Shown here piece after piece: positions 24,852-35,272 of a stretch of DNA of 64,000 bases. Source of the stretch: Zoogloeaceae bacterium G21618-S1 (GTDB lineage: Bacteria > Pseudomonadota > Gammaproteobacteria > Burkholderiales > Rhodocyclaceae); the NCBI GenBank assembly GCA_027214125.1, contig JAPWHF010000007.1, positions 237,268-301,267 on the forward strand, read 5' to 3'. The notes beneath the pieces are model-generated. The model did not search any database and had not been told where the DNA came from. It worked only from the letters and a program-made list of their open reading frames with translations. How positions within the stretch are numbered: the stretch's first letter is position 1; every line of letters starts with the position of its first letter. A program made the translations under genes and the position numbers.

Positions 24852-26471
24852 TCAGGCGTGCAGGCGAGCGGCGCGGATGAGTTGTGCGCCGCGCTCAGCG
24901 ATCATGATCGTCGGTGAGCTGGTATTGCCTGAGGTGATGGTCGGCATGATCGACGCGTCGACCACCCGCAGCCCGGTCATGCCGCGCAGTCGCAGTTCGG
25001 CGTCGGTGACCGCCATCGCATCGTCCGCACGGCCCATCTTGCAGGTGCCGACGGGATGGAAGATGGTCGTGCCGACGTTGCCCGCGACATGCGCCAGTTG
25101 CTCATCGGTGGTGAATTCCGCGCCCGGCAGGTGTTCCACCGGTTTGAATGGCGCGAGCGCCGACTGCGCGACGATGCGACGGGTCAGCCGCAGGGCGCGG
25201 GCCGCCTTCAGGCGATCCGCCTCGTGGGTCAGATAGCAGGGCGCGATCTTTGGTGCACTGCCCGGGTCGCGGTCACGGATTCCGATGTGGCCGCGCGATT
25301 GCGGGCGCAAGTCGCAGACGCTGGCCGTGAAGGCCGGAAAGCGATGCACCGGATCACCGAACTTGTCGAGCGACAGCGGCTGGACATGGTATTCCAGGTC
25401 CGGCGTCTCGACGGATGGGTCCGAACGGGCGAACAGGCCGAGCTGGCTGGGCGCCATGGTCAGGGGGCCGCGGCGGAAGAGGGCGTATTCCAACGCCATC
25501 ATGGCCTTGCCCCACAGGCTGTTGGCCTGCTGGTTGAGCGTCTTGATGCCCTGCACCTTGTAGACGCTGCGCAGTTGCAGGTGATCCTGCAGGTTCTTGC
25601 CAACCCCCGGCAGCGCATGGACAACGGGGATGCCCAAGGATTGCAGCATGTCCGGATCGCCGATGCCCGAGCGTTGCAGGATCGCGGGCGAGCCGACGGC
25701 GCCGGCCGACAACACGGTCTCGATACGGCTGTGTGCCACGCAGGACTCGTTGCCGCGGCGGAATTCGATACCTCGCACGTGCTTGCCTTCGACCACCAGC
25801 TTGTCGGACAGAGCACCGGTGACGATGCGCAAGTTCGGACGTGAGCGGATCGGATCGAGAAAGCCGCGAACGCTGCTCCACCGTGTGCCCCGTTTCTGGT
25901 TGACCTCGAACTGGCTGACGCCCTGGTTGTCGCCACCGTTGAAATCCGGCGTATTGGAAATGCCGGCCTGTACCGCTGCCTCGGCGAAACGATCGAGAAC
26001 GCGCCACGACAGGCGCTGCTGCTCCACCCGCCATTCGCCGCCGGCGCCATGCGTTTCGCTGGCACCGTTCCAGTGATCCTCAACGCTCTTGAAATGCGAC
26101 AGCACGCTGTCCCAGCGCCACCCGGAATTGCCGGTGAGATCGGCCCATTCGTCGTAGTCGCGCGATTGTCCACGCAGGTAGAGCATGGCGTTGATCAGCG
26201 TACTGCCGCCCAAGCCTTTGCCGCGGGCATAGATGATCGAGCGGCCGTTGAGGCCAGGTTCGGGCTCGGTCATGTAGCACCAATCGGTACGTGGATTGTT
26301 GATGCAATAGAGGTAGCCGACGGGGATCTTGGTCCAGATCCATTTTTCGTCATTTCCGGCTTCGAGCAGCAGGACGCTCACGTCCGGGTCTGCCGACAGT
26401 CGGTTGGCCAGCACGCAGCCGGCCGCGCCGCCACCGACCACGATGTAATCAAATTCGCCTAGATCGTTCAT
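24852..26471 (-). CDS. dddA: GMC flavoprotein, probable 3-hydroxypropionate dehydrogenase DddA
   Basis: 539 aa with CAGGAG before the ATG at 26471. GMC (choline/alcohol dehydrogenase) family. The N-terminal FAD fold is YIVVGGGAAGCVLANRL, followed by the GMC signature GKGLGGSTLINAMLYLRG and a C-terminal HPVGTCKMG with NTSSPTIMIAERGA, which include the active-site His/Asn region. On sequence alone it could be any alcohol dehydrogenase of this family. In Halomonas and Alcaligenes DMSP clusters, as I recall, a GMC-type DddA oxidises 3-hydroxypropionate to malonate semialdehyde. Its place 73 bases after dddC, downstream of acuNKI and dddY, makes that role likely here. Confidence 0.82.
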   Translation of the reverse strand: MNDLGEFDYIVVGGGAAGCVLANRLSADPDVSVLLLEAGNDEKWIWTKIPVGYLYCINNPRTDWCYMTEPEPGLNGRSIIYARGKGLGGSTLINAMLYLRGQSRDYDEWADLTGNSGWRWDSVLSHFKSVEDHWNGASETHGAGGEWRVEQQRLSWRVLDRFAEAAVQAGISNTPDFNGGDNQGVSQFEVNQKRGTRWSSVRGFLDPIRSRPNLRIVTGALSDKLVVEGKHVRGIEFRRGNESCVAHSRIETVLSAGAVGSPAILQRSGIGDPDMLQSLGIPVVHALPGVGKNLQDHLQLRSVYKVQGIKTLNQQANSLWGKAMMALEYALFRRGPLTMAPSQLGLFARSDPSVETPDLEYHVQPLSLDKFGDPVHRFPAFTASVCDLRPQSRGHIGIRDRDPGSAPKIAPCYLTHEADRLKAARALRLTRRIVAQSALAPFKPVEHLPGAEFTTDEQLAHVAGNVGTTIFHPVGTCKMGRADDAMAVTDAELRLRGMTGLRVVDASIMPTITSGNTSSPTIMIAERGAQLIRAARLHA

Positions 26472-26544
26472 GAGGTTCTCCTGGAATGAAAGGCGCAAAG
26501 CACGCCCGCCTCCGTTGGAGGCGGACAGGGTGGCGTCGATGCGC

Positions 26545-34261: not shown

Positions 34262-34372
34262 CGCCCTTTGTCTTTTTTTGGCATGCGGCCCGTTGTCGAC
34301 GCGCACGCCAACACCGCGTTTGCATACACAGACCGCGCCCGCGGCGGACATTGGGCGTTTCGTATATCGGTA

Positions 34373-35272
34373 TCAGAGGCTGTCGCGGTGCCAGACTTCC
34401 GCCACGATATTCAGCGCGGCGGCGACGGTCTGCTCTTGGTAGCGCTCCTTGCGGCAGACAACGGCCAGTTCGGCCGGCAGCACCACCGCGTCAGCAATAA
34501 CAACGCCATCTGCATGGGCGGCGCGCAGCGCCTGGCTATCGCGCGCCAAGGCGAGTGCCACGCCCGACTTGACCAGATCCATCATCGACGGTTCAAGGTC
34601 GACCTGCGCCACGATGTTGAACTCGACCGCCTCGGCGGCCGCCACCCGGGCGAGCAGGCGGTGATGTACCGACTCCGGCGGCGTGCCAATCCACGGCAAC
34701 TGCGCCAGTTCGCGCCAAGTCTTGCCTCTGACCTGCCCACCCCAGTTTGGCGGCGCGATGACCCGATAGACAAAGTCAGTCAGCGCGAGCACCTCAAACT
34801 GCTCGCGAAGATCTGCCAGGCCGGGGGGGCCGAGCGCAAACGCAACATCAAGCTTGCCCGCGGCCACATCCGCCGCCATCGCGCCCGACATGCCATGGCG
34901 TAGCGTGAAAGATACGGCCGGATGCCGCTCGGCAAGCAGGCGCAAACACGCGCCCAGGCGGAGAAACTCCGGATCGAGAATCGTCCCCAGACTCAGGCTG
35001 CCGAGCACACTCCCTTTCAGACTCGCGGCAGAGGCCCGAAACTCGCTCATCGCCGTCAGCACCCGTTCCGCCGCGGGCAACAACTGCCGGCCCGCCTGCG
35101 TCAGGTGCATACCCCGGGGATGGCGCTCGAACAGCGGGGTCGCTATCGACTGCTGCAACTTCTTGAGCTGCAAGCTCAACGCCGGCTGCGTGATACACAG
35201 ACGCTCAGCCGCACGCGTTAGGTTCCCCTCTTTGGCTACGGTCACAAAAGCACGCAACTCGGCATGGTTCAT
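34373..35272 (-). CDS. LysR-family transcriptional regulator
   Basis: 299 aa. The N-terminal winged helix-turn-helix (about 1-60) is ELRAFVTVAKEGNLTRAAERLCITQPALSLQLKKLQ, followed by a substrate-binding domain (about 90-290) with LGTILDPEFLRLG and KLDVAFALGPPGL. It sits 147 bases upstream of the TetR gene on the same strand, at the head of the DMSP/acrylate cluster. LysR-type regulators (DddR) accompany ddd genes in some bacteria, so a second input to the cluster is possible. I see no divergent target gene, which LysR proteins usually have, so the link is inference. Confidence 0.8.
   Translation of the reverse strand: MNHAELRAFVTVAKEGNLTRAAERLCITQPALSLQLKKLQQSIATPLFERHPRGMHLTQAGRQLLPAAERVLTAMSEFRASAASLKGSVLGSLSLGTILDPEFLRLGACLRLLAERHPAVSFTLRHGMSGAMAADVAAGKLDVAFALGPPGLADLREQFEVLALTDFVYRVIAPPNWGGQVRGKTWRELAQLPWIGTPPESVHHRLLARVAAAEAVEFNIVAQVDLEPSMMDLVKSGVALALARDSQALRAAHADGVVIADAVVLPAELAVVCRKERYQEQTVAAALNIVAEVWHRDSL

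Follow-up and report, generated by a model that had tools for sequence, protein, structure and literature searches.

Nine adjoining genes in a 64,000-nucleotide stretch of the genome of the betaproteobacterium Zoogloeaceae bacterium G21618-S1 (the window) very probably constitute a catabolic set for dimethylsulfoniopropionate (DMSP) and acrylate, of the kind described in Alcaligenes faecalis M3A and likely exchanged as one block. The lyase DddY is predicted to cleave DMSP, and the remaining genes likely take acrylate to acetyl-coenzyme A (acetyl-CoA). The system is known in kind; new here are its placement, the inferred transfer, the predicted operators, and an extra PAS gene. This places a predicted pathway that produces dimethyl sulfide (DMS) and consumes acrylate in Denitromonas. 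The isolates described for this genus come from mudflats of San Francisco Bay; they denitrify facultatively, and some also reduce perchlorate (PMC10581121). Because one described isolate, Denitromonas halophila SFB-3, carries a near-identical island, the pathway is testable at once.

The sequence-only reading of this DNA had called nine adjacent minus-strand genes at 24852-35272, and every one of them is present: nine adjoining open reading frames (ORFs) of the ORF list, all on the minus strand, occupy the stretch, with intergenic gaps of 34-229 bp. Pfam and NCBIfam models fit the proposed reading order acuZ, acuR, acuN, acuK, acuI, dddY, PAS, dddC, and dddA, and agree with the neighbors that had been assigned to dddY: a CoA transferase, an enoyl-CoA hydratase, AcuI, an MmsA-type dehydrogenase, and a GMC dehydrogenase. 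Three products exceed the cut-offs of curated equivalog models: DddY (NF043049; 865 bits, cut-off 800, residues 1-401 of 401 covered), AcuI (NF051456; 582 bits, cut-off 440), and the TetR-family regulator AcuR (NF051457; 297 bits, cut-off 247). Since these equivalogs pass, automatic annotation would not miss the cluster, contrary to what had been supposed.

The earlier description of DddY as intact, with all key residues in place, agrees with the equivalog score, with alignment to solved structures, and with a residue check. Residues 1-400 align without gaps to residues 1-400 of PDB entries 5xkx/5xky and 5y4k/8hle; we take 5xkx and 5y4k to be Acinetobacter DddY structures. In this alignment to characterized DddY at the metal site, which had been proposed as a check, Y260, H263, H265, E269, Y271, and H338 are all kept, with identical numbering. 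The list of six comes from the earlier reading, and the roles of these active-site residues are known. The same six residues occur in 102 of 108 other DddY homologues; among the rest, 4 are gapped at H338 only, 1 has no residue aligned at any of these positions, and 1 carries other residues. The N-terminus, MFQRYAGLLFGSILASSQVMAAEF, resembles a signal peptide as judged by eye, and DddY is predicted to reside in the periplasm.

The general pathway runs from DMSP through acrylate, 3-hydroxypropionate, and malonate semialdehyde to acetyl-CoA. In the proposed mechanism, DddY would cleave DMSP in the periplasm into DMS and acrylate, AcuN would load CoA onto acrylate, and AcuK would hydrate the resulting acryloyl-CoA to 3-hydroxypropionyl-CoA. 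We infer a CoA cycle at this point, in which AcuN would transfer CoA from 3-hydroxypropionyl-CoA to the next acrylate, releasing 3-hydroxypropionate. DddA would then oxidize 3-hydroxypropionate to malonate semialdehyde, DddC would convert malonate semialdehyde to acetyl-CoA and CO2, and AcuI would reduce surplus, toxic acryloyl-CoA to propionyl-CoA. As long as acrylate is absent, AcuR may keep acuR, acuN-acuK-acuI-dddY, and dddC-dddA repressed by way of an operator at each promoter, and AcuZ may add a response to 3-hydroxypropionate or acrylate. An organism so equipped would make DMS from DMSP and grow on acrylate.

A full route from DMSP to acetyl-CoA had been claimed for this cluster. The gene set stands: nine co-oriented genes belong to families that fit an M3A-type ddd/acu cluster, whereas the names AcuN, AcuK, DddA, and DddC are likely ones that come from family membership and neighboring genes. 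The DddC candidate scores 684 bits against TIGR01722 (cut-off 448.5); its gene starts with the ATG at 28059 behind AAGGAG, and a TTG-started ORF extends to 28110. The AcuK candidate scores 403.5 bits against the enoyl-CoA hydratase model NF004517 (cut-off 396), and the AcuN candidate is 84% identical to an Acinetobacter bereziniae protein, the best 7999 candidates by shared words having been scored. Given that 7 of the 9 genes concern acrylate, 3-hydroxypropionate, or their regulation, the cluster might serve mainly for the catabolism and detoxification of these two compounds, with DddY supplying acrylate occasionally or acting on another dimethylsulfonio or acryl compound. The persistence of acuI beside dddY in compact relatives, from genera such as Accumulibacter and Thauera, also fits such a role. 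We consider it improbable: the metal site of DddY is intact, and between the window genome and SFB-3 the protein is 100% identical, with the second-lowest synonymous divergence (dS) of the nine genes, a combination that suggests selection on DddY.

The island that holds the nine genes contrasts with the DNA on either side. Outside the island, identity to SFB-3 is 81.8% on the left (7.5 kb) and 86.5% on the right (17.5 kb). The dS values agree: they are 0.016-0.062 in all nine island genes, whereas six of seven flank genes give 0.72-0.86 and the remaining one, enolase, gives 0.31. These values come from our own Nei-Gojobori script, with the seven hand-picked flank genes as the divergence baseline; flank gene 56889-58859 was left out because its SFB-3 partner ran off the compared stretch. 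A block near-identical in two species whose surrounding DNA is much less alike was likely exchanged recently between Denitromonas species. The island occupies the same position in both genomes, and a stretch of 212 bp (35693-35903) that ends at a dif-like site to its right is 76% identical to SFB-3; the dif core apart, this stretch was not found in genomes G220, G145, and G199. Both facts would suit a block that was vertically inherited and kept alike by strong selection, and the 212 bp mean that an older insert may be ancestral. We nevertheless regard inheritance without recent transfer as very unlikely, since synonymous sites are alike too, identity steps abruptly at 24502 and 35565 with the outermost 500-base island bins still at 94.6% and 96.8%, and flank gene 41344-42615 combines a protein identity of 96.9% with a dS of 0.85.

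The identity step could also be an assembly artefact in which DNA of another Denitromonas strain was joined into the contig, and the assembly does comprise 66 contigs. This too is highly improbable: the block is 98.5% rather than 100% identical to SFB-3, and so is not SFB-3 DNA, and it is internal to a contig, occupies the location that it has in SFB-3, and shows differing short sequences at its two junctions. The site is empty in G220 and G145, with the two flanks just ~0.3 and ~1 kb apart. The empty site is seen in these two genomes only; in G060, G175, and G199 the two flank genes are separated by 140-260 kb, G238 matches on the right flank only, beside a dif-like core, and G253 and G266 have no left-flank match. 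Exchange of the block between species would have occurred either through homologous exchange across a pre-existing insert or through a new insertion. It offers a clear case in which an entire pathway, with its regulators and predicted operators, likely moved between species as a single block at a defined chromosomal site. A plasmid origin of dddY was rejected: tblastn of DddY against 72,556 plasmid records gave no match.

Among relatives, dddY is rare. Of 10 Denitromonas genomes, 2 carry it, and DddY matches occur in 9 of 297 family genomes (the window's own included), 3 of which pass the cut-off; the weak matches include 51 residues with an internal stop in G250 and partial or split copies in G079, G085, and G234. 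At class level, dddY is found in 1 of 369 genomes, the window's own, and at phylum level in 3 of 398, again including its own. AcuN is 99% identical in SFB-3 and at most 40% identical in the seven other dddY-matching family genomes, so that, within this group of genomes, the complete cluster is found in the Denitromonas island only. The PAS-only gene is 99-100% identical in 2 of the 10 Denitromonas genomes; the other eight hold only distant PAS domains of bigger proteins, which among the matches listed reach at most 35% identity over the domain and up to 43% across stretches of fewer than 50 residues. By these sequence comparisons, the PAS-only gene is an extra, island-specific gene within the genus. 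A role for its product as a conserved partner of DddY was rejected, as no match at E<=1e-8 lies near dddY in 10 non-Denitromonas loci, one of which (L006) spans just 4.7 kb. The contig scan behind these loci finds close relatives only, and some of the genomes recur in the family survey.

Several of these loci merit separate mention. Full or partial dddY occurs in Thauera, Accumulibacter, and Competibacteraceae metagenome-assembled genomes (MAGs; L001, L002, L003, L004, and L011), where a source of DMSP is not obvious. These are wastewater groups and, to our knowledge, Accumulibacter and Thauera are not known for DMSP. In an Accumulibacter MAG (L003, 7105-9917) acuI is split by ~1.8 kb, and in a Rhodocyclaceae MAG (L010, 10001-10893) dddY lacks ~63 residues, which may point to decay of the compact cluster in part of the genomes. 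As for published work, among the matches listed for DMSP lyase with horizontal transfer or genomic islands, the excerpts do not describe the island, and among those listed for DMSP with a dif site or XerC, none links the two. Literature excerpts on Denitromonas and DMSP name the genus once, for ectoine genes. Excerpts on Accumulibacter and DddY yielded no report, and those in which DddY and Rhodocyclaceae-type names both occur do not link them.

The regulators were also compared with known systems. At the best of 25 constant offsets, AcuR agrees with Halomonas D47 AcuR at 12 of 13 effector-pocket residues, among them each of the six that weakened DMSP or acrylate binding in D47 when changed (pocket lists for AcuR and AcuZ from PMC13104084). 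The 9-mer TTAGACCGA occurs three times in the window, preceding acuR, acuN, and dddC, where 0.13 occurrences are expected; three were reached in 0 of 100 shuffles, for a motif chosen post hoc, after comparison of the cluster gaps. One further 10-mer is common to two of these gaps. At the acuR promoter, TAATAA lies 17 bp from TTGACT, and because the -10 element ends 7 nt upstream of the ATG, the acuR transcript is predicted to be leaderless. Among relatives, the palindrome TTAGAC-N5-GTCTAA (at most 2 mismatches) stands before acuR and before acuI in all five loci with a detected acuR (L001, L005, L008, L010, and L011), with 10 matches there compared with 0-2 per replicate in 20 Markov controls. 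L002 and L003 also carry two such palindromes before acuI; L004, L006, and L007 have none at this threshold. The palindrome resembles the Rhodobacter sphaeroides AcuR operator, TAATAGAC-n6-GTCTATTA, which was tested by mutation and belongs to an operon with leaderless mRNA (PMC3017554). AcuR is predicted to act as a repressor here, following what is reported for A. faecalis and R. sphaeroides and where the predicted operators lie.

Just beyond the right end of the island lies a site that we read as a predicted chromosomal dif site (Table 1). Its 16-bp core, at no more than 1 mismatch, occurs in all 10 Denitromonas genomes, with two copies in G199 and a single copy in each of the others, and is flanked by dissimilar DNA across them; a dif-like motif is found in 49 of 101 family genomes, against 1 of 101 for a reversed-pattern control. 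Position lends weak support to a location at the replication terminus: cumulative GC skew within the window peaks at ~42 kb (2-kb samples), and in G060, a genome of one contig, the core maps to 52% of the length, a value computed from a rounded size and valid provided that the contig starts at the origin. Escherichia coli dif, in the sequence we assume for it, differs from the site at 12 of 28 positions and does not pick it out; the genus's own motif was used as probe after E. coli dif proved uninformative. In G220 and G145, the flank on the type VI secretion side, the dif core, and the 41344-42615 side all lie within a few kb. In the window, ~4.2 kb directly right of the site (35904-40167), encoding a Crp-HTH protein (36842-38272), is DNA missing from SFB-3, G220, and G145. 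Since flanks and core adjoin in those two genomes and extra DNA adjoins the core here, the place beside the site looks like an insertion spot.

Two kinds of insertion were rejected for the island: an integrative mobile element exploiting Xer recombination (IMEX) bounded by two dif sites, as the single dif-like site is at the right end only, and insertion at an RNA or tRNA gene, as no structured RNA or tRNA was detected across the window at the thresholds of the tools used. The island could still be a dif-targeted cargo element carrying a complete, self-regulated pathway from DMSP to acetyl-CoA. Lacking its own integrase, such an element would rely on the XerCD recombinases of the host to enter Denitromonas chromosomes at the terminus, and the PAS protein would be an additional sensor that links the pathway to redox or small-molecule state; we hold this to be unlikely. 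If it were true, DMS production would spread as a single 11-kb unit among these bacteria. Elsewhere, G199 contig C126 carries dif-like copies at 106582 and 242464, ~136 kb apart and one per flank, as expected for a Xer-integrated element, and contig C33 of G003, from another genus of the family, has dif-like sites at 44175 and 52203, ~8 kb apart.

Table 1. Genes, predicted sites, and the shared island in the window (coordinates in window positions).
Feature	Position	Strand	Basis or remark
GMC-family dehydrogenase, likely DddA	24852-26474	-	Pfam GMC_oxred_N/C; assigned by context
CoA-acylating (methyl)malonate-semialdehyde dehydrogenase, likely DddC	26545-28059	-	TIGR01722
PAS-only protein, 158 aa	28289-28765	-	TIGR00229 and PAS Pfams
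Predicted DMSP lyase DddY	28880-30085	-	NF043049, structure alignment, active-site residues
AcuI, acrylyl-CoA reductase (NADPH)	30148-31137	-	NF051456
Enoyl-CoA hydratase, likely AcuK	31276-32145	-	ECH_1, NF004517; assigned by context
CoA transferase family III, likely AcuN	32180-33445	-	PF02515; context
AcuR, TetR-family regulator	33590-34225	-	NF051457; pocket residues
LysR-family regulator, likely AcuZ	34373-35272	-	Pfam HTH_1 and LysR_substrate; pocket residues
Predicted AcuR operator before dddC, degenerate	28115-28132		4 palindrome mismatches; exact 9-mer TTAGACCGA at 28123-28131
Predicted AcuR operator before acuN	33557-33574		TAAGACAATCGGTCTAAT on minus strand
Predicted AcuR operator at acuR, degenerate	34235-34252		between -35 TTGACT and -10 TAATAA
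Predicted chromosomal dif site	35874-35902	+	AACAGCGATAA TTTGTA TTATGTAAACC; 308 bp from island end
Island	24502-35565		98.5% identical to Denitromonas halophila SFB-3

Beyond the island, the region 15455-24500 borders it with type VI secretion genes, including IcmF/TssM (17220-20984) and an OmpA-type protein (15455-16240), and with what is presumably a VanY-like gene. This region is syntenic in SFB-3 and G220, and partly so in G145 and G199. On the other side, 57000-57714, within a gene (56889-58859) that resembles those of AMP-binding acyl-CoA synthetases, is ~97% identical to SFB-3, compared with 80-90% for most of the flank; it is possibly a second exchanged stretch.

Several observations weigh against the reading of the nine genes as an M3A-kind set exchanged as one block. 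Regarding the enzymes, the AcuN candidate has no NCBIfam model above cut-off, the AcuK candidate passes a general enoyl-CoA hydratase model only, and the GMC enzyme falls below the choline dehydrogenase model cut-offs, with no specific model passing for DddA; it could use another alcohol. Pfam finds no transporter among the nine genes, and the single BCCT transporter sits on another contig. Regarding regulation, of the 11 pocket residues published for AcuZ, the LysR protein has just 7 at the best of 25 constant offsets, and at the offset used its position 130 is Arg where AcuZ has the Ser needed for 3-hydroxypropionate. Of the three predicted operators in the window, the one at acuN alone is a palindrome with at most 2 mismatches, the acuR and dddC sites having 3-4, and AcuR of Halomonas D47 is an activator, not a repressor (PMC13104084). 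Regarding transfer, Pfam finds no integrase among the nine genes, and the left island junction has no second dif-like copy (best score -16.6, compared with 48.4 for the site). The sole dif core copy of G175 is on contig C2, and its flank genes are on C1. In addition, 500-base bins of the right flank between 52.5 and 57.7 kb reach 85-98% identity to SFB-3, so the island may not be the sole low-divergence stretch; this part consists partly of conserved core genes (enolase and CTP synthase). Three of these observations, namely the placement of the core in G175, the degeneracy of operators, and the 52.5-57.7 kb stretch, lower our confidence both in the exchanged catabolic set and in dif-targeted entry.

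The closest described system is that of A. faecalis M3A, also a betaproteobacterium, whose set comprises dddZ, dddR, dddA, dddC, acuN, acuK, acuI, and dddY; acrylate induces the promoter from which its acuI and dddY are transcribed together (PMC3338564). It has dddY, acuI, acuN, acuK, dddA, dddC, and two regulators in common with the window; acuI is immediately 5' of dddY in both, and the M3A AcuR is reported in the excerpts as a repressor, as is predicted here. The M3A operon, acuR-dddC-acuZ-acuI-dddY, differs in gene order when compared by description rather than by sequence (PMC13104084), and the PAS gene and the adjoining dif-like site are features of the window, the M3A gene list as quoted containing no PAS gene. 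The Halomonas HTNK1/D47 cluster has acuN, acuK, dddA, dddC, acuI, AcuR, and AcuZ in common with the window; it uses DddD and the transporter DddT where the window has DddY, and the D47 AcuR activates acuI only (PMC13104084). In R. sphaeroides, acuR-acuI-dddL has a leaderless acuR and an operator that overlaps the promoter, and acrylate derepresses it, an arrangement likened to that of the window by prediction. It differs in its lyase, DddL, in an operator spacing of n6 rather than n5, and as a three-gene operon without acuNK and dddAC (PMC3017554).

Nearer relatives carry compact acuR-acuI-dddY clusters (Thauera and Rhodocyclaceae MAGs; L001, L005, and L008), with DddY 76-83%, AcuI 78-83%, and AcuR 62-63% identical to the products of the window. 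They share the AcuR-operator-like palindromes and have no acuN, acuK, dddA, or dddC within 7-10 kb on either side. The operator precedes acuI in these clusters and acuN in the window, behind a T-rich stretch in both cases, which suggests that acuNK was inserted between operator and acuI here, or lost there. Such paired patterns, compact acuR-acuI-dddY on one hand and acuNK behind the same kind of operator on the other, make the order of pathway assembly testable.

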